Assembly (NCBI RefSeq): GCF_014202635.1 | Contig: NZ_JACHHD010000014.1 | Coordinates: forward strand, 1-61,189 | Direction of reading: 5' to 3' | DNA: 61,189 bases | Source: Faecalicoccus acidiformans | GTDB taxonomy: Bacteria; Bacillota_I; Bacilli_A; Erysipelotrichales; Erysipelotrichaceae | Shown: positions 1,385 through 21,659 of the stretch, piece after piece | Position numbering within the stretch: position 1 is the stretch's first letter | How the letters are laid out: every line of letters begins with the position of its first letter | Program-made: the position numbers and the translations under genes | Notes under the pieces: model-generated | Told to the model about the DNA's origin: nothing | The model's database searches: none | The model's input: the letters and a program-made list of their open reading frames with translations, nothing else

Positions 1385-2917
1385 ATGCATAAATTATTAC
1401 GTTTCGTCAAATCGAAGCCTTTTTTGATTGCAGCTTCTTTTCTGTTTCAACTGGGGCTTTTCATCTTGTTGATCACATGGTTTTCGCGACGCTTTTTCGG
1501 AATCTATTTCTTGTTGGTTCTGTTGAGTTTTTTCATCAGTGTTCAAGTTATCAATCGAGATTCTGATTCTTCTAGTAAACTGCTGTGGGTTTTAGTGATC
1601 ATGTTTATGCCTGTTTTCGGAGGCTTGTTATATATTTTGTTCGGGGCGCGAAAGATCCCGAAAGAACTGATGATCAAAGACCGTCAGGCAGCTTATGATT
1701 ACCAGCGCTATGCCAAACAGAGCATGCGGGTGATCATGCGCGAAAAAGACGATTACGTTTTGGACAAAATGGCTTCGTTGGCATGGTCCAACGGGTATTT
1801 TCCTATCTATGATCATTGCGATGTCTGTTATTTTCCAACGGGTGAGGAACAGTTCCAGGCTTTTCTTAAAGAACTCTCCAAGGCCAAATCTTTTATTTTC
1901 CTGGAATTTTTTATCATCAATAAAAGTGTGATGTGGAATACGATTTTACAGATCTTGTTGGATAAGGCAAGTGAAGGTGTCGATGTTCGCTTGATCTATG
2001 ATGATTTTGGAACGATAACATACTTGCCGGCACACTATGATCGCTGGCTCAATGAACGTGGTGTCAAGGCGCATCGTTTTAACCCCATGAAACCGCAAAT
2101 TGCGATCCAAATGAATAACCGGGATCATCGAAAGATCTTGGTGGTCGATGGCAAAGTTGCTTTTACAGGCGGCTGTAATATATCGGATGAATATATCAAC
2201 ACAAAAGAAAGGTTCGGACATTGGAAAGATATGGGGGTTTGTATTAAGGGACCTGCCGTTGAAACCTTTATCATATCTTTTTTACAGATCTGGAATTATC
2301 AATCTGAACATCCAACACAGTATGATTCTTTTGTCTTGAAGGGCAACCGCCAGGATCATTATGATCAGCCTGGGTATGTACTTCCTTTCAGTGATTCTCC
2401 GACGGATGATAATTATACGGGAAAATTCATGCATTTGAATTTATTGAATTCGTCTAGAGATTATTTCTGGATCACGACCCCATATTTGATCTTGGATGAT
2501 GAGATGGTGACAAACTTGCAGCTGGCCGTCAGCAGCGGGGTGGATGTTCGTATCGTAGTGCCGGCCATTCCAGATAAAAAAGTTGTTTATCAAGTCACAA
2601 AGGCCAATTACGATGCCTTGATCCAAAAAGGCGTACGAATCTACGAGTATTCGCCAGGTTTTATTCATGGAAAAGTTGCCTTGAGCGATGATCGAAGTGC
2701 CATCGTCGGAACGGTCAATATGGATTTCCGCTCGTATTACTTACATTATGAGTGTGGAGTTTTCTTGCGAGATACGCACTGTATAACGGATATCAAAAAA
2801 GATTTCAAAGAAATCTTTAAAGTTTCGCATGAAGTGACTTTGGAAGAATGCAAACAAGTCCATTTCTTCGTTCGCCAATTCCGTAAAGTTTTAAAAATCT
2901 TTGGACCAATGTTATAA
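1385..2917 (+). CDS. cls: Cardiolipin synthase (phospholipase D family)
   Basis: This 510-residue membrane enzyme belongs to the bacterial cardiolipin synthase family, which joins two phosphatidylglycerol molecules into cardiolipin and glycerol. Two or three hydrophobic segments lie in residues 12-88, followed by two phospholipase D domains. Each carries an HxKxxxxD motif: HRKILVVD near residue 248 and HGKVALSD near residue 430. The length fits the family. There is no ribosome-binding site before the ATG; a well-spaced promoter ends 6 bases upstream, so the mRNA may be leaderless. The gene stands alone between two terminators. Confidence 0.95.
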   Translation: MHKLLRFVKSKPFLIAASFLFQLGLFILLITWFSRRFFGIYFLLVLLSFFISVQVINRDSDSSSKLLWVLVIMFMPVFGGLLYILFGARKIPKELMIKDRQAAYDYQRYAKQSMRVIMREKDDYVLDKMASLAWSNGYFPIYDHCDVCYFPTGEEQFQAFLKELSKAKSFIFLEFFIINKSVMWNTILQILLDKASEGVDVRLIYDDFGTITYLPAHYDRWLNERGVKAHRFNPMKPQIAIQMNNRDHRKILVVDGKVAFTGGCNISDEYINTKERFGHWKDMGVCIKGPAVETFIISFLQIWNYQSEHPTQYDSFVLKGNRQDHYDQPGYVLPFSDSPTDDNYTGKFMHLNLLNSSRDYFWITTPYLILDDEMVTNLQLAVSSGVDVRIVVPAIPDKKVVYQVTKANYDALIQKGVRIYEYSPGFIHGKVALSDDRSAIVGTVNMDFRSYYLHYECGVFLRDTHCITDIKKDFKEIFKVSHEVTLEECKQVHFFVRQFRKVLKIFGPML

Positions 2918-2918
2918 A

Positions 2919-2945
2919 AAAAGAGGAGTCGGTTTGACTTCTCTT
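2919..2945. terminator. Bidirectional terminator between cls and fumC
   Basis: Inverted repeat AAGAGGAGTC / GACTTCTCTT with T-runs on both strands, placed between two convergent genes. Confidence 0.75.
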
Positions 2946-4311
2946 AAATCATTTTTTGAGGATCGACATACTGGTCAAATTCCTCTTCTGTCAAATAGCC
3001 CAATTCTAAAATAGCTTCCTTTAAAGATAGATTATGATGATAAGCATATTGACTGGCTTTTCCAGCTTTTTCATACCCGATGATCGGATTCAGACAAGTG
3101 ACCAGCATCAAGGAGTGATGCAAGTTTTGATCCATGACTTCTTTGTTTGCCTTTAGTCCCTTTAAACAGCGTTCACGGAAGGAATCCATCGCATCGGATA
3201 AGAGCTGGATGCTCTGATCGATATTATAAGCAATCAAAGGCATGAAGACGTTGAGCTCAAAATTTCCCTGACTGGCAGCGATTCCGATTGCGGCATCGTT
3301 ACCCATGACTTGAACGCATACCATGGTCAAGGCTTCGCACTGTGTCGGATTGACTTTTCCTGGCATGATCGAACTGCCTGGTTCATTGGACGGGATCTCG
3401 ATTTCATGGATTCCGCAACGTGGACCCGAGGCCAGCCAGCGAATGTCATTGGCGATCTTCATGCAGTTGGCCGCCAATCCCTTTAAAGCGCCAGATAATA
3501 AAACGGCGGCATCCTTGCTGGTAAGGGCATGAAATTTATTCGGGTCTGGCACGAACTCGATTCCGCTCTTTTCTTTGAGGATCGAACAAACTTTTTGATC
3601 AAATCCCTTCGGACAGTTGATTCCAGTTCCTACGGCAGTGGCTCCAATGGCCAGTTCACAGACATATTTTAAACTGTCCTGGATCTGCTGCAGGCTGTGT
3701 TCGATCATAGAACGATATCCGCTAAGTTCCTGGGAGAAATAAAGCGGTGTCGCATCTTGAAGATGAGTTCTTCCAATTTTGATGATTCCCTCGTTTTCTT
3801 TTTCAAGATCTCGCAAACAAGCGATCATCTTTTCAGCGCTGGGGATCAGTTCCGATATCGTCTTGTCTGCCATCATCATATGCAAGGCCGTTGGGAATGT
3901 ATCGTTTGAGCTTTGTGAACAATTGACAATATCATTGGGGTGCAAGATTGTTTCATTGGCCCACTGGTTTCCTAAAGTGGTAATGACTTCATTGAAATTC
4001 ATATTGGTTTGCGTCCCGCTTCCGGTTTGCCAAATATGTAAAGGAAATTGGTCTAAATAGTGTCCTTTCAATATTTGCGAAGTGACATGATCGATTGCCT
4101 GATACTGTTTTTCAGAGATCTTTCCGTATTCAAGATTGGCTTTAGCACAGGCTTGCTTCAGCAACGCAAAAGCATAGAGCAGACTTTCTGGCATCGTTTC
4201 TTTCCCAATCGGGAAATTTTCCAAACTTCGCTGAGTCTGGCTCTTCCAATATTTATCACAAGGAACTTTCACTTTTCCCAGGACATCTTCTTCGATTCGA
4301 TAAGTTGACAT
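2944..4311 (-). CDS. fumC: Fumarate hydratase, class II
   Basis: This iron-independent fumarase interconverts fumarate and L-malate. It is about 455 residues, the usual length. The family signature GSSIMPGKVNP is present, as are TGSGTQTNMN, which favours fumarase over aspartase, and the GRTHLQDATP helix. The start is set at the second ATG because GGAGG lies 7 bases before it; another ATG two codons upstream sits only 1 base after the GGAGG. No other citric-acid-cycle gene is nearby, so a role in aspartate/fumarate turnover or a partial reductive branch is possible. Confidence 0.95.
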   Translation of the reverse strand: MSTYRIEEDVLGKVKVPCDKYWKSQTQRSLENFPIGKETMPESLLYAFALLKQACAKANLEYGKISEKQYQAIDHVTSQILKGHYLDQFPLHIWQTGSGTQTNMNFNEVITTLGNQWANETILHPNDIVNCSQSSNDTFPTALHMMMADKTISELIPSAEKMIACLRDLEKENEGIIKIGRTHLQDATPLYFSQELSGYRSMIEHSLQQIQDSLKYVCELAIGATAVGTGINCPKGFDQKVCSILKEKSGIEFVPDPNKFHALTSKDAAVLLSGALKGLAANCMKIANDIRWLASGPRCGIHEIEIPSNEPGSSIMPGKVNPTQCEALTMVCVQVMGNDAAIGIAASQGNFELNVFMPLIAYNIDQSIQLLSDAMDSFRERCLKGLKANKEVMDQNLHHSLMLVTCLNPIIGYEKAGKASQYAYHHNLSLKEAILELGYLTEEEFDQYVDPQKMI

Positions 4312-14967: not shown

Positions 14968-15088
14968 TTTCCAACCAATAAAAGTATGCTGTTTCATGTT
15001 CTTAAGAAAATCTTTAGGTTAAGATTTCGTTAAGTGGGTAAAATGGGGTTTATAATAAGAGTAACTGATTTAGAAAGGAATGAACGGA

Positions 15089-15802
15089 ATGCAAGCAAAA
15101 GAATTCTCTCAAGTGATAAAGCAAAATTTGATTCAAGAATACAAACAGCACTATACGCAAGGAATCTATGGTCAGATCCAGATTGAGTTTGCCTATCATT
15201 CTAACCGTCTTGAAGGCGGAGGACTCTCGCTAGAACAAGTGCGCTCGCTGTTTTTAGACGGACTTATTTTACCAGATGTGAAACCAGTGCATCTATTGGA
15301 TGTTGAAGAGATCACTGGTCATTTTCAAATGTTTGATGAAATGTTGATGACGATATCGAATTCTTTATCACATAATCTGTTAAAGAAGTATCATCTTTGT
15401 TTGCGTAACGGGGTAACCCGCACGCTCAATTTTGCCGGGGAATACAGTAATATCAATCAAAAGGAGGACTCGCTGCCAGAAGAACTGGTTAAGACGATGG
15501 AGTCTTTGATTCGGAATTATAATGAGAAAGATTCGCATTCTTTAGAAGATATGGCACGCTTTCATGTGCAAATGGAAAAGATTTTGCCATTTTTTCAAGG
15601 AAACAGCCGGATCGGTCGGATCGTTCTCTTCAAAGAATGTCTAAAGAATGAAAGAATACCGTTTTGGATTCACAATGAAAATGAATCGGTTTATCATTTT
15701 GCTCTGCAAAAAGGAAAAGAAACAGGAGATATCGAAGATTTGGTTTGCTTGTTCAAAAAAGAACAAGACGCTTTCTATGAGAAATTCAAAGATCGAATTT
15801 AA
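15089..15802 (+). CDS. Fic-domain protein with altered active-site motif
   Basis: A 237-residue protein of the Fic (AMP-transferase) fold. An N-terminal SNRLEG fits the inhibitory (S/T)xxxE(G/N) motif that blocks ATP placement in self-inhibited Fic proteins. The core motif, usually HPFxxGNGRxGR, reads LPFFQGNSRIGR here: the catalytic His is Leu and the second Gly is Ser. Normal AMP transfer therefore seems unlikely; it may bind nucleotide only, or do different chemistry. AGAAAGGA lies 10 bases before the ATG at 15089, and TATAAT is seen at 15051. It is flanked by terminators, so it stands alone. Confidence 0.8.
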   Translation: MQAKEFSQVIKQNLIQEYKQHYTQGIYGQIQIEFAYHSNRLEGGGLSLEQVRSLFLDGLILPDVKPVHLLDVEEITGHFQMFDEMLMTISNSLSHNLLKKYHLCLRNGVTRTLNFAGEYSNINQKEDSLPEELVKTMESLIRNYNEKDSHSLEDMARFHVQMEKILPFFQGNSRIGRIVLFKECLKNERIPFWIHNENESVYHFALQKGKETGDIEDLVCLFKKEQDAFYEKFKDRI

Positions 15803-15939: not shown

Positions 15940-16353
15940 CTATTCACTGGTATAAGAGAATACAAACTGATCTCCATCGCTGATTTCTAAATCTTGTACA
16001 GCCGGACACATTCCTGCTTCTTTACAAGTTTCATTGGTTTCACTGGAGTACAGCCACCATGGACCTTTATCAAAATCTTGTTTTAAACCTAACATGGAAT
16101 CAATGTATGCACCATAGCTTCCGTCTTCAAATACAACTTCTAATTCATCGCATTCAGACAAAAAGTCATACAAGTTTTCAATATTTCCTTCTTTGGTCAA
16201 TGTTTCATTAAACAATTCTTTGTCGTTGACCTCATCTTTTACGACAATGTCTAAAGACACTTCCTTTACAGAAGAATCTGTATCACTTTGTGAAGAACAG
16301 CCGGTTAAAATCATTCCGGCACACAAGCTCATTAATAAAATATTCTTTTTCAT
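15940..16353 (-). CDS. DUF4430-type lipoprotein in a cobalamin operon
   Basis: A 137-residue lipoprotein: signal peptide with lipobox LTGC (Cys19), a Ser/Asp-rich linker, then a compact domain. GPWWLYSSETNE and the ending DGDQFVFSYTSE fit the DUF4430 / transcobalamin C-terminal-like family, from memory of that family. It is the third gene behind a B12 riboswitch, after an adenosyltransferase and an ECF S-component, so a role in capturing or passing on a corrinoid at the cell surface is a reasonable inference. AAAGGA precedes the ATG. It lies 60 bases after the S-component gene. Confidence 0.8.
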   Translation of the reverse strand: MKKNILLMSLCAGMILTGCSSQSDTDSSVKEVSLDIVVKDEVNDKELFNETLTKEGNIENLYDFLSECDELEVVFEDGSYGAYIDSMLGLKQDFDKGPWWLYSSETNETCKEAGMCPAVQDLEISDGDQFVFSYTSE

Positions 16354-16413
16354 AAGTAAAATCCTTTCGTTTGCGGCAGAAAACCGCTGCCTTTAGAGGA
16401 TGAGGAGTTGACA

Positions 16414-16908
16414 TCAATATCTCCTCTGTAATTTTTCTAAAAATTCAACTAATTTATTTCCAATCAAGGAATATTCAACGCCGCTGATTAGTCCCTGTGG
16501 AATTGAAACCTGTAACCCCAAGATCAAATATAAAACTGTAACTTGTTTAGAGAACAATAGGAATGGTAATTGTAAGAGCTGTCCGGTTAAAAAGGAAAAA
16601 AATCCACATAACAAGATCGGATAGATCTTTCTTTTTACGAGTCTATTTTTATTCAGACCTATGATCAAACTATAGCTTGGATACACCAAAACATACATGG
16701 CATTCCAGGGATTTACGCCTTTGATGAACATATTTATCACAGTAAAGATCAAAGATCCGATTACCGCTTGCCTGGTTGAAAAGCTCATTGCGATCACAAA
16801 AGTACATAAAGTGATGACCTCAAGATACATCACGAAAGAAAGGGAGGTAAAGGCAATAAATTGAATCGCCCCCAGGATAGCACACAATACCATGTCACGT
16901 GTTGTCAT
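16414..16908 (-). CDS. ECF transporter S-component, probably for cobalamin or a precursor
   Basis: A 164-residue, very hydrophobic protein with five or six membrane helices, the size of substrate-binding S-components of energy-coupling-factor transporters. Expression would be controlled by the B12 riboswitch upstream, and its ATG overlaps the adenosyltransferase stop codon (ATGA), so the likely substrate is a corrinoid. It would use a shared EcfA/A'/T module encoded elsewhere. It could be related to the B12 S-component CbrT, which I cannot confirm by eye. Confidence 0.8.
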
Positions 16909-17396
16909 GAAACAACCTCATACGACTTAGAGACAAACACCTTTTCTTCAAATCCTTCTTGTTCATTTTCATACAGAGCCATATAGAAAAACAGATTGGC
17001 CAAAAGATTAAATAGATCATAGATCTTTTTATCCACCTGTTTTTCAGCTTCGATCTTCACGATCCAGCGAACGATATTTTTACATTCACTTCTAAGTACA
17101 TGAAGATAACTTGCCCCAATGCACCCAATCGGCAGATAGAATTCCTTAAATGGTCTTTCATACTTTTGATAGATCTGTTCTACTTGTAGAAATCTTTTAT
17201 CATCAATCGCATTTTTACCACGGATCGATCCATTGGCATGATAGATCGTTTCACATAAAAATAAGAGTTCCTTTTGATCAATATGCTTGATATAGTGCAT
17301 AGACAAACCTAGAAAACTTGCCAGACGATCGGTCATGATTTCATAATCGCACTGACTCGATCTTTCTTTTAGAAAACTGTAAGCACAATAATCCAT
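16905..17396 (-). CDS. Cob(I)alamin adenosyltransferase, PduO-like
   Basis: About 163 residues. It resembles PduO-type ATP:cob(I)alamin adenosyltransferases, which attach the adenosyl group to make coenzyme B12: the region [17 protein letters not shown] matches the family's LPGG...AxLHxARxxCRRAER helix, and [15 protein letters not shown] matches the LNRLSDxLFxxAR helix. It is diverged, and some ATP-binding arginines are not obvious. It is first behind the B12 riboswitch and overlaps the transporter gene. The ATG at 17396 lies 8 bases after AGGAGG; in-frame GTG and ATG codons just upstream are too close to it. Confidence 0.78.
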
Positions 17397-17410
17397 TTTC
17401 ATCACCTCCT

Positions 17411-17437
17411 AAAAAAATCTGCCTTTTGGGCAGATTA
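17411..17437 (-). terminator. Riboswitch-controlled terminator before the cobalamin operon
   Basis: On the minus strand AATCTGCC CAAAA GGCAGATT is followed by seven T's and then immediately by the AGGAGG of the adenosyltransferase gene. It is the expression platform of the B12 riboswitch. Confidence 0.85.
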
Positions 17438-17473
17438 AAAGAAATCTCTTTTTCTTGAGCCCAGAAGAAAAAA

Positions 17474-17620
17474 CTGTTTATAAGAAAGCAGGTCTCCCGA
17501 CTTCATTTCATCCTCTGATCGCCTTCCCGTATTTCCACAGTGGCTTTGATCATCGTCCATATCACGGTTGCTGGGGCAGTTAAAGCTTTTACTTTATTCC
17601 CTTGACTTCCTTATAAGTGA
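17474..17620 (-). ncRNA. Cobalamin (B12) riboswitch
   Basis: Read on the minus strand, the region holds the B12 aptamer landmarks in order: ACTGCCCCAGCAACCG, AGCCACTG, GGGAAGGC and the B12 box GAAGTCGGGAGACCTGC. It is followed by a terminator right before the operon, so cobalamin binding should shut transcription. The ends given are approximate. Confidence 0.93.
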
Positions 17621-17627
17621 TTCAATT

Positions 17628-18473
17628 TTATTGTTCTTCGATCTTCATGGTATTCATCTTCTTGAATTGACCAGGTGTTATAGAATAGATTCGTTTAAAC
17701 GCCTTATAAAGCACAATATCCGACTTAAATCCGCAACTTTGCGCAATTTCTTCAATTGTCAATCGATCCTCTAACAACAAGCTCTTTACTTCTGTCAGTC
17801 TTCTTCGAACGATGAAATCATGCACCGAAAGTTCCATGACTTCTTGGAAAACATGTAAAACATAATATTTGCTGTAACCAAGAAATTTACAAATATCATC
17901 CAGACAAATATCTTCTTTGAAATGATCTTCAATATACTCTACAGCTTTTTTAACCAATATAGATTTCTTATTGTCTTTATCTATATTCAGATGGATCACA
18001 TCTGAATAGAAGCGATACACACTGGAACTGTTCATAAAGATATCACAAGTTTTATATTTCGTTAAGCTGGAATAGATCGAGTTAAAGAAATAATTCACTT
18101 TTTTATACGCAGTTGAATCCAGAACATAAAAATCTTTCTCAAAAACACTGGACATCTTCTTGCCCTTGATCAAGCAGTATTCCAACTCGACATCATTAAG
18201 ATTCAATTCAATCTTATGCCTTCTCAACAAGATCAATGTTGTATTGATATCCGGTGATATTCGTTTATCATCTATCGTAACGATACCTAAGTTTTCATAC
18301 CAGGAAATGACCAAACAATCCTCTTTGCCTAATTCAATAGAGTATAAAATATGTTTTTTAGTACGAATTCGACCAATCTCAACAGCTAAATGAAGAGCAT
18401 GTCTTAAAGGATGTTCAGACTCTAATAGATAGTGTTTCTTATGTTCTGCATACTCTGTCTCAAACATAGTCAT
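17628..18473 (-). CDS. AraC-family transcription regulator
   Basis: A 281-residue regulator. The C-terminal third (about 180-280) is a double helix-turn-helix AraC domain with LDDICKFLGYSKYYVLHVF and IEEIAQSCGFKSDIVLYKAF. The N-terminal 170 residues are not a clear cupin and may sense a small molecule. It sits 8 bases after a broken corrinoid-activator gene and just upstream of the B12 riboswitch operon, so it may have controlled a corrinoid-dependent pathway. A second ATG at 18467 has better spacing to AAAGAG and may be the true start. Confidence 0.85.
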   Translation of the reverse strand: MTMFETEYAEHKKHYLLESEHPLRHALHLAVEIGRIRTKKHILYSIELGKEDCLVISWYENLGIVTIDDKRISPDINTTLILLRRHKIELNLNDVELEYCLIKGKKMSSVFEKDFYVLDSTAYKKVNYFFNSIYSSLTKYKTCDIFMNSSSVYRFYSDVIHLNIDKDNKKSILVKKAVEYIEDHFKEDICLDDICKFLGYSKYYVLHVFQEVMELSVHDFIVRRRLTEVKSLLLEDRLTIEEIAQSCGFKSDIVLYKAFKRIYSITPGQFKKMNTMKIEEQ

Positions 18474-18480
18474 TCTCTTT

Positions 18481-19146
18481 CTATAAAATACATATTATCA
18501 ACAAAGTATTCAAAAAAAAAGAATTCTCCATTAAAGAAATCGTTTTAGACTTTCCTTGAATTTCTTCGATCTTTTTTCTATTCTGCAAAAGCGCATATTG
18601 ACATATGCCTCTTAAAGCGGTATTGCCGGAAATAGAACTTTTATCCTTCCAGGTATGACTAAATAAACCTAATCGTATACAGTCTTCTATATCGATGCTT
18701 TTTGAAAAACCACCCGATAAATAAACTCTGTCAACTTCTTTATCTTGTAAAAGACAATCAAGAGTAGCAATGATGGCTGATTTTGAAAGTTGAAATTCAC
18801 GAATATCCTTTTTAGTTAATACGATATCGCCGCATAAATAAGAATCATGCTCCATATAACCGCTTTTCTGCAAGACACCTTTCTTTAACAATGTCGCAAG
18901 CCAGGAAATATACCCATTTCCGCAAACACCAACTGCTTGTTGATCTTGAAGCGAATGGTATTTCAGACATTGATCAAACCATACTTTATCCACAGCTCCA
19001 ACTACAGCACCGATTCCACATTTCATGTGTCCCCCTTCAAAAGCCGGTCCACAAGCAGCGCTGGTCACGATATAGTGATTCTGATCACTATAGACCATTT
19101 CTCCATTCGTACCTAAATCAATTAATAATTCTTTTTCTTTTTGTTA
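18481..19146 (-). pseudogene. Remnant of a RamA-type corrinoid-protein activator (DUF4445)
   Basis: The C-terminal ASKHA-like half of a reductive activator of corrinoid proteins. Typical pieces include LLIDLGTNGE, TSAACGPAFEGG, CGIGAV, LTKKDIREFQLSKSAI and VYLSGGF. The reading frame meets a stop at about 19146 in an A-rich run, just before KELLIDLGTNGE. The usual N-terminal ferredoxin domain and first half are not found upstream. An ATG inside (19098) would give a 205-residue fragment lacking the phosphate-binding start, so I treat it as broken. It adjoins the AraC gene. Confidence 0.75.
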
Positions 19147-20797: not shown

Positions 20798-20814
20798 ATA
20801 ACTGCATAAAATAA

Positions 20815-20920
20815 ATCTTCAGGGCAGAGTGAAATTCTCGACCGGTGGTACAGCCCACGAGCCGAAAGGCAGATTCGGTGCAACTCCGAAGCCGACAGTA
20901 TAGTCTGGATGGAAGAAGAT
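20815..20920 (+). ncRNA. FMN riboswitch (RFN element)
   Basis: Near-consensus FMN aptamer: closing stem ATCTTC / GAAGAT, GGCAGAGTGAAATTC, ACCGGTGGTACAGCCC, ATTCGGTGCAACTCCG, GCCGACAGTATAGTC and GGATGGAAGA. It precedes a RibU-type transporter. A GACGC...GCG hairpin at about 20948-20994, next to the ribosome site, is the likely expression platform. Confidence 0.96.
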
Positions 20921-21011
20921 GCTTTTTTTGTACATTTTTATAGACAAAAGACGCACCTGAACTGGAAGAGTTATTTTAGGCGCGTTTTCTTTGTTTATGG
21001 AGGTGTATATC

Positions 21012-21659
21012 ATGAATAGTCGCACAAAGAAAATTACTACCATCGGAATGATGTGTGCCATGGCAATGGTTGTGAATCTGCTGATTCATTTTCCCATCAT
21101 TCCTTCGGTATCATTTCTAAGTTACGATCCTAAGGACATAGTGATCGTAATTGCTGGTTTTATCTATGGGCCTTTCAGTGCATTTGCCATGAGTGCTATT
21201 TGTGCCGTGCTGGATATCATGTTTCGTGGAGGAACGATTCTTGATATTTTGATGAATATGATATCAACGTGTATGTTTGCCTGTGTTGCAGGAGCGATAT
21301 ACAAAAAAGAACATACGAAAAAAGGTGCTTTGATTGGATTAGGAGCAGGAGTTGTATTGACTACCTTGAGCATGCTTTTATGGAATTATATAATTACTCC
21401 GATCTATTTTGGAATTCCAAGAGAAGCTGTAGCAGCTATGTTAATTCCCGGTATCCTGCCATTCAATTTGATCAAATATGGAATCAATGCTGGTGCCAGT
21501 TTGCTGTTGTATAAGCCGGTCATAACCGCATTAAGAAGTTCTCATTTAGTTACTTCATCAGAGACGGTACATGAGAAATCAAATGAAATGGTTATTTTAG
21601 GTGGATTTATTGTAATAACATTGATTTTTTTGATGTTAGGATATCAAGGCGTGATTTAA
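21012..21659 (+). CDS. ribU: Riboflavin ECF transporter S-component
   Basis: A 215-residue membrane protein with about six helices that binds riboflavin for an ECF transporter. The segment FLSYDPKDIVIVIAGFIYGP is close to the family's conserved YDPxD...GP pattern. Control by an FMN riboswitch strongly supports the assignment. GGAGGT lies 7 bases before the ATG. A gene for an FMN-type protein follows after 15 bases, making a two-gene operon for flavin uptake and use. Confidence 0.94.
   Translation: MNSRTKKITTIGMMCAMAMVVNLLIHFPIIPSVSFLSYDPKDIVIVIAGFIYGPFSAFAMSAICAVLDIMFRGGTILDILMNMISTCMFACVAGAIYKKEHTKKGALIGLGAGVVLTTLSMLLWNYIITPIYFGIPREAVAAMLIPGILPFNLIKYGINAGASLLLYKPVITALRSSHLVTSSETVHEKSNEMVILGGFIVITLIFLMLGYQGVI

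Follow-up and report, generated by a model that had tools for sequence, protein, structure and literature searches.

A cobalamin-riboswitch operon of Faecalicoccus acidiformans with a CbrT-like ECF S-component and a putative corrinoid-capturing lipoprotein

Positions 1 to 61,189 of contig NZ_JACHHD010000014.1 of Faecalicoccus acidiformans (assembly GCF_014202635.1) form a stretch, called the window below, that carries on its minus strand, from position 17625 to 15940, a cobalamin riboswitch followed in order by a terminator, a PduO-like gene, a gene for an energy-coupling factor (ECF) S-component and a lipoprotein gene. Judged from sequence, this is probably a cobalamin-repressed operon for corrinoid uptake, in which the lipoprotein would capture corrinoid for a CbrT-like S-component that works on a shared ECF module. 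A preliminary description of this DNA had named the same elements, all of which are present, without stating the strand, and had proposed that a surface protein hands corrinoid to an ECF system and that adenosylation follows inside the cell. The B12-regulated uptake operon, the CbrT-like S-component and the lipoprotein of the transcobalamin-beta family are borne out by the analysis reported here, and the adenosylation step has become doubtful.

The operon and its riboswitch

The riboswitch aptamer (17470-17625; all parts of the operon are on the minus strand) scores 76.7 bits with the RF00174 covariance model against a gathering score of 31.5, aligns over the full length of the model (1-189 of 189) and is the sole cobalamin riboswitch in the 1.77-Mb genome. 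Our claim for it is based on this Rfam match and not on the fold of the leader, which is no better than that of shuffled sequences (z -1.62). An intrinsic terminator with an 8-pair stem, a 5-base loop and a T-run (17416-17436) lies between the aptamer and the first ribosome-binding site, the position expected of an expression platform; by count, terminator-like sites are near chance (2 found, 2.0 expected). The listed PduO-like open reading frame (ORF) opens with a GTG at 17405 and ends at 16905; the ATG at 17396, right behind AGGAGG, is the better start and gives a protein of 163 amino acids (16905-17396). Its stop overlaps the start of the S-component gene (164 amino acids; 16414-16908) in an ATGA at 16905-16908, and the gap between the S-component gene and the lipoprotein gene (137 amino acids; 15940-16353) is 60 bases in the window and 1 base in two close relatives. 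A simple scan found no promoter-like site on the minus strand between riboswitch and lipoprotein. Purifying selection acts on each of the three genes: the ratio of nonsynonymous to synonymous substitution (dN/dS) across three relatives is 0.05 in the PduO-like gene, 0.02-0.04 in the S-component gene and 0.06-0.13 in the lipoprotein gene.

The S-component resembles CbrT

The window S-component falls below the curated threshold of Pfam PF12822 (22.5 against 30.7 bits) and has no family in NCBIfam, the lipoprotein likewise falls below that of Pfam DUF4430 (PF14478; 17.4 against 23.8 bits, E 0.0062), and Protein Data Bank (PDB) searches with either single sequence gave nothing useful. Because both Pfam scores were below the curated cut-offs, we built profiles from relatives. 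The profile of 25 S-components that adjoin DUF4430 genes (A1; 9 of the 25 match PF12822 at 0.001) finds one PDB chain at E≤1, 6fnp_A (4.3e-30), which is CbrT, the cobalamin S-component, in the ECF-CbrT structure 6FNP; CbrT had reportedly been predicted by Rodionov in 2009. A version of 21 sequences from which the window and the loci L001, L002 and L017 were left out has a single match among all window ORFs of at least 60 amino acids, at 16908-16414 (5e-14), and in a small panel it did not match the window's other S-component-like proteins. For a profile of the window's own clade (A10; 13 sequences, with L112 excluded since no S-component is present there) 6fnp_A is again the sole PDB match, a weak one at 0.07. 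We regard the CbrT-like assignment as supported, and predict from it that the protein binds cobalamin.

Two other identities were considered and set aside. The riboflavin-/folate-type kind of S-component is found in the window at 20991-21659, behind a flavin mononucleotide (FMN) riboswitch, and is not matched by the leave-out profile; that riboswitch and the second ECF S-component, riboflavin-type by Pfam, together occupy 20811-21659. Nothing pointed to a CblT-type alpha-ribazole transporter, for which no CblT profile was run.

A single CbiQ/EcfT-type gene is present in the genome and lies, with two ATPase genes beside it, in a ribosomal-protein cluster (L048), so the window S-component most likely uses this shared EcfA-EcfA'-EcfT module. 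No CbiO or CbiQ genes were found next to the window operon; such genes are present at, for example, L023, L026, L036 and L037.

The lipoprotein belongs with the transcobalamin beta domains

A motif search finds a lipobox, LTGC, in the lipoprotein, with the predicted lipidated cysteine at residue 19 (16297-16299). The leave-out lipoprotein profile (17 sequences) has a single match among the same window ORFs, at 16353-15940 (8.8e-13), and the lipoprotein of L017, 41% identical to that of the window, clears the PF14478 cut-off at 23.9 bits. In the organism's own genome PF14478 finds nothing at E≤0.001, a failure of sensitivity: a profile of 21 small DUF4430 proteins (A2) recovers there the window lipoprotein (itself in A2) and a second one on contig C7, and PF14478 thus undercounts, having also missed most carriers of the window's subtype (below).

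When compared with known structures and carriers, the A2 profile matches 3u7z (RUMGNA_00854) at 6.3e-23, transcobalamin-1 at 3.7e-7, the beta domain of transcobalamin-2 at 6.9e-4 and intrinsic factor only at 0.3. Three close sequences went into an AlphaFold2 model of the window lipoprotein. Foldseek places 5np4, the transcobalamin beta domain bound to cyanocobalamin, first for this model (6.8e-4), and transcobalamin, haptocorrin or intrinsic factor make up 15 of its 16 leading rows. In the VIA comparison 3u7z has a Z of 6.5 and the transcobalamins have 5.6-6.2. Between profile A4 and a profile of 11 strong DUF4430 domains (A3) hhalign gives a probability of just 9%. Vertebrate transcobalamins carry a C-terminal DUF4430 domain (PubMed Central (PMC) article PMC4350170), and the isolated human transcobalamin beta domain (TC-beta) binds cyanocobalamin (CNCbl) and cobinamide (PMC5599065). 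Membership of the lipoprotein in the transcobalamin beta-domain family is supported by these profile and model comparisons, and we call its corrinoid binding putative. The human carriers transcobalamin, intrinsic factor and haptocorrin thus share with it a beta domain that is homologous by profile and similar by fold, whereas the bacterial protein is predicted to be tethered to the membrane and is without the toroid half.

CbrT-like S-components are usually paired with DUF4430 genes

PF14478 occurs in 15 of 95 family genomes. Eleven of the 15 loci have an S-component-like ORF beside the DUF4430 gene, and two more have an EcfT-like ORF there (these ORF identities are our own reading; the S-components of the 11 are rows of A1). 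Among 392 Bacillota genomes PF14478 is found in 61, and an independent search with A1 matches in 112. When the two were crossed, with no rows dropped, a CbrT-like gene lay within 300 nt on the same strand in 37 of the 61 genomes, within 2.5 kb in 48 and within 6 kb in 54; at all 38 places where the two lie within 1 kb they share a strand, and 25 of the 48 genomes that contribute no sequence to A1 have a CbrT-like gene within 1 kb of PF14478.

The preliminary description had called for a survey of DUF4430 and S-component neighbours behind B12 riboswitches, and had asked whether the lipoprotein gene has a promoter of its own and unrelated neighbours in other genomes. A count with A2 over the 392 Bacillota genomes finds a DUF4430 gene within 300 nt at 73 of 104 CbrT-like places (within 100 nt at 65). 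All 73 close pairs are on the same strand, with the DUF4430 gene 5' in 59 and 3' in 14. In this count we kept the S-component places down to about 3e-15 (104 of 122) and those of the lipoprotein profile down to about 1e-5 (107 of about 147), and added 18 PF14478 places. The pairing is therefore no accident: it is kept in many genomes and is always co-directional when close. Together with the lack of a promoter-like site in the window, this settles the earlier question about neighbours in favour of the operon reading. The count shows that this kind of S-component is usually paired with DUF4430; it does not show this for every CbrT.

Two pairs come from named species outside the order, Enterococcus raffinosus (L127) and Subdoligranulum variabile (L128); at L128 the pair stands behind an adenosylcobalamin (AdoCbl) riboswitch. 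Plasmid searches with the S-components of the window and of L095 returned nothing. When short flanks were scanned, 3 of the 15 loci of the family and 9 of 29 from the phylum had a cobalamin-class riboswitch. Of 16 longer stretches 11 had one; these stretches share loci with the first two sets and do not add independent cases.

Other arrangements of the DUF4430 gene were also seen. At L081 and L083-L087 a separate alpha/alpha-toroid surface protein, with a profile match to squalene-hopene cyclase (2.7e-10), is encoded directly before the DUF4430 gene; in most of them a CbrT-like gene comes next, and at L083-L087 a riboswitch lies upstream. This gene pair is a split bacterial counterpart of transcobalamin. 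No toroid gene was found in the F. acidiformans genome, a weak negative because the query had no positive control there. At L092-L095 the order behind a B12 riboswitch is a longer lipoprotein with one or more DUF4430-like domains, then a small DUF4430 protein, then the S-component (at L095 on the minus strand).

The window's subtype and its second copy

When the PduO-like protein was used as query, relatives turned up in 14 of the 95 family genomes; three matches at 26-29% identity, among them L122 at 26%, were left out of the counts below. The subtype so defined comprises 13 intact operons (the window and L110-L121) and one broken copy in the organism's own genome (L109). A lipoprotein is present in 14 of 14 and an S-component in 13 of 14, counting a 92-amino-acid remnant at L109; the S-component is absent at L112 (genome G052), where riboswitch, PduO-like gene and lipoprotein follow one another with no S-component between. 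A riboswitch lies upstream in 11 of the 14 operons (none in L109, L116 and L119), and the motif search finds a lipobox in 12 of the 14 lipoproteins, including that of the window. The subtype's 13 full-length lipoproteins (profile A9) all have a GPWWL stretch and a CxxxxxC pair, both without variation; the lipoprotein of L114, kept out of A9 because the contig cuts it, retains the pair. In the window this clade-specific motif with its invariant pair reads GPWWLYSSETNETCKEAGMC (16006-16065). Most DUF4430 partners do not have the Cys pair.

The nearest named relatives of the window operon are in Faecalitalea cylindroides ATCC 27803 (L001) and an uncultured Faecalitalea metagenome-assembled genome (L002), with S-components 95% and 87% identical to that of the window. 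Against F. cylindroides, which has a different genus label (g42), identity is 95% for the S-component, 94% for the PduO-like protein and 90% for the lipoprotein, while EcfT (L048) is only 79% identical to that of the F. cylindroides genome and 84-86% identical to those of congeners. Since the operon proteins are so much closer to F. cylindroides than EcfT is, the operon looks horizontally acquired. Of the congeners, G029 has only the other, about 50% identical version of the operon (L119), and the search with the PduO-like protein gave no match in G074. The second copy in the F. acidiformans genome (L109; G000:C7:23500-30000, 2348-3541) is broken, with a stop within the PduO-like frame and the S-component shortened to 92 amino acids, although its lipoprotein is intact, and no riboswitch reaches the gathering score there. 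Its intact counterpart is L119 of G029, and L109 looks like an older native copy that was replaced by the transferred operon.

Next to the window operon, immediately upstream of the riboswitch, lies an AraC-type regulator gene (17628-18473, minus strand), an order that is identical in L002, and beyond it a 5'-truncated gene for a RACo-type corrinoid-protein reactivator (18481-19098, minus strand); in L002 the reactivator is 474 amino acids long and a corrinoid-protein-like ORF precedes it. On the other side the operon adjoins a gene for a Fic-domain protein on the opposite strand (15080-15802).

A PduO-like protein doubtful as an adenosyltransferase

The PduO-like protein matches PF01923 with 40 bits (cut-off 24), in an alignment that covers profile positions 32-170 of 171 and thus corresponds to the C-terminal part, and it scores 56.1 bits with TIGR00636, below the cut-off of 108.45. 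In a set of 15 such proteins that includes two ordinary PduOs (A8), all 15 match PF01923 at E≤0.01. The likeness to PduO-type ATP:corrinoid adenosyltransferases is this family match; the differences lie in the motifs. The TKxGDxG segment is present in the two ordinary PduOs (L038 and L044) and absent from the window protein and 12 intact relatives. The window protein has VR for ER and NLLAN for NRLSD, and across the subtype ER has become VR, IR or LR and NRLSD has become NLLAN, NLLSN or similar (L119 retains NR). We take the TKxGDxG, ER and NRLSD residues of PduO to have roles in binding ATP and corrinoid. The subtype proteins conserve instead a motif of their own, CAYSFLxE...CDYEI.TD.LAS...YHANGSIR. 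Since TKxGDxG is absent and ER and NRLSD are replaced, we do not file the protein as an adenosyltransferase; at L038 and L044, in contrast, an ordinary PduO gene follows the DUF4430 and S-component genes behind a riboswitch.

These replacements make the adenosylation inside the cell that was earlier proposed doubtful, and so does the rest of the genome. Its sole protein over the PF02310 cut-off, and its only clear B12-binding-domain protein, is a MetH-like methionine synthase (L049, an 804-amino-acid open frame), and MetH requires methylcobalamin, not adenosylcobalamin.

A proposed uptake route and its rivals

We propose that at low intracellular cobalamin the riboswitch would prevent termination, as its family and position suggest, and that the three genes would then be expressed. 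The lipoprotein, on the outer face of the membrane, would capture cobalamin or cobinamide in its transcobalamin-type beta domain, and would either raise the local concentration of corrinoid for the CbrT-like S-component or pass corrinoid to it. Import would be driven by the genome's one EcfA-EcfA'-EcfT module, which is shared and encoded at another locus, once the S-component has docked on it. The PduO-like protein, made together with the importer, would most likely take over or bind the corrinoid after import, MetH being the likely consumer of that corrinoid; adenosylation by the PduO-like protein is doubtful.

Several points weigh against this route. The lipoprotein model is poor (mean pLDDT, the predicted local distance difference test, 56; TM, the template modelling score, about 0.4), and VIA gives unrelated ubiquitin-like folds scores nearly equal to those of the transcobalamins (Z 5-6, up to 6.0). 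The strong-DUF4430 profile A3 has no transcobalamin match in the PDB at E≤1, and the window-clade profile A9 matches only 3u7z (0.018) and no transcobalamin. Furthermore, 22 of the 104 CbrT-like places have no DUF4430 gene within 6 kb (many of these lie in genomes that show several TGA codons in frame and are apparently Mollicutes-like), and A1 and A2 were drawn largely from adjacent pairs, which biases the counts toward that kind of S-component. Finally, ECF-CbrT of Lactobacillus delbrueckii transports cobalamin and cobinamide in liposomes (PMC5997447), and because it does so with no outside binding protein, such a protein cannot be strictly needed in the CbrT family.

It is conceivable that the lipoprotein binds corrinoid without handing it over, so that it stores, protects or chemically readies the ligand at the surface (for example by removing the upper ligand through its CxxxxxC pair) and the S-component takes up free corrinoid. 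The partnerless transport just described fits this, as does the high affinity with which L. delbrueckii CbrT alone binds cobalamin and cobinamide (PMC5997447). The invariance of the Cys pair and GPWWL in the 13 full-length subtype lipoproteins, with the pair also in L114, would fit as well, cysteine-mediated decyanation being described for the B12 protein BtuM (PMC6072759). Yet most DUF4430 partners do not have the Cys pair, so such chemistry cannot explain the pairing in general, and linkage as tight as that seen at the 65 places within 100 nt suggests a direct partnership; we consider the no-hand-over explanation rather unlikely.

That the domain binds another ligand, such as cobalt or some small molecule, with the riboswitch reflecting supply of cobalt or a precursor, we think very unlikely. 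The closest relative of known structure, 3u7z, carries no annotation beyond that of a putative metal-binding protein, and a four-sequence S-component profile (A7) missed 6FNP and weakly touched CbiM (0.46), two further points that tell against a corrinoid carrier; the wider S-component profile matches CbrT alone, however, and for the lipoprotein family both sequence and fold point to the transcobalamins. The operon might instead be a decaying passenger that is retained only because its transfer was recent, as the truncated reactivator gene upstream and the broken older copy on contig C7 could suggest, but its three genes are intact, with dN/dS of 0.02-0.13 against relatives, and riboswitch and terminator are intact too, so we give this idea hardly any credence. 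The capture of corrinoid by the lipoprotein for the CbrT-like S-component is the reading that we retain.

Relation to known systems

The idea that surface proteins of this kind serve B12 uptake is already in print in outline. Burroughs, Balaji, Iyer and Aravind (2007; PMC1796856) defined a transcobalamin-like SLBB clade, described its signal peptides, its fusions to toroids and its occurrence in operons together with CbiO and CbiQ, and put forward the idea that transcobalamin-like surface proteins scavenge B12 in Gram-positives. The window operon resembles these systems in that a secreted or surface beta-grasp domain is encoded with ECF-type genes and B12 scavenging is predicted, but it differs from operons with CbiO, CbiQ and often alpha/alpha toroid fusions in having a lone-domain lipoprotein, a CbrT-like S-component and no dedicated ATPase or T gene. 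The available text of PMC1796856 makes no mention that we found of S-components or riboswitches, and what is added here beyond that text is the CbrT partner, the riboswitch and the shared ECF module. In searches of the PMC open-access literature we found no tie of DUF4430 to CbrT-type S-components, no account of the riboswitch context, no count of the pairing, no stand-alone lipoprotein with a shared ECF module and no PduO-like subtype.

ECF-CbrT of L. delbrueckii (6FNP) shares with the window the CbrT-like S-component, a shared ECF module and an adjoining pduO-like gene. Its cluster is nrdJ-cbrS-cbrT-pduO, in which cbrS occupies the usual place of the DUF4430 gene; the available part of PMC5997447 neither states the cbrS product nor discusses an outside partner of CbrT. 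BtuF-BtuCD, named in the same paper, is alike only in its working, in that a B12 ABC importer is served there by an external binding protein; its transporter type and its binding protein are unrelated to those of the window.

Tentatively, one might go further and imagine a three-protein relay in the Erysipelotrichaceae, in which a Cys-pair lipoprotein passes corrinoid to the S-component and this to a PduO descendant without an ATP site that serves as acceptor or chaperone, with CbrT importers in Bacillota normally having a transcobalamin-like partner, one that would have been missing from studies of these importers so far. The PduO-like protein without the ATP segment is a separate puzzle in its own right. 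In ECF importers the membrane S-component is described as the substrate-binding protein, and if most CbrT-like S-components of Bacillota have a transcobalamin-like surface partner, the B12 branch would be an exception among these importers. The operon would also link the B12 carriers of animals to a living bacterial system that has the beta domain alone, and it may have a bearing on the competition for B12 among gut bacteria.

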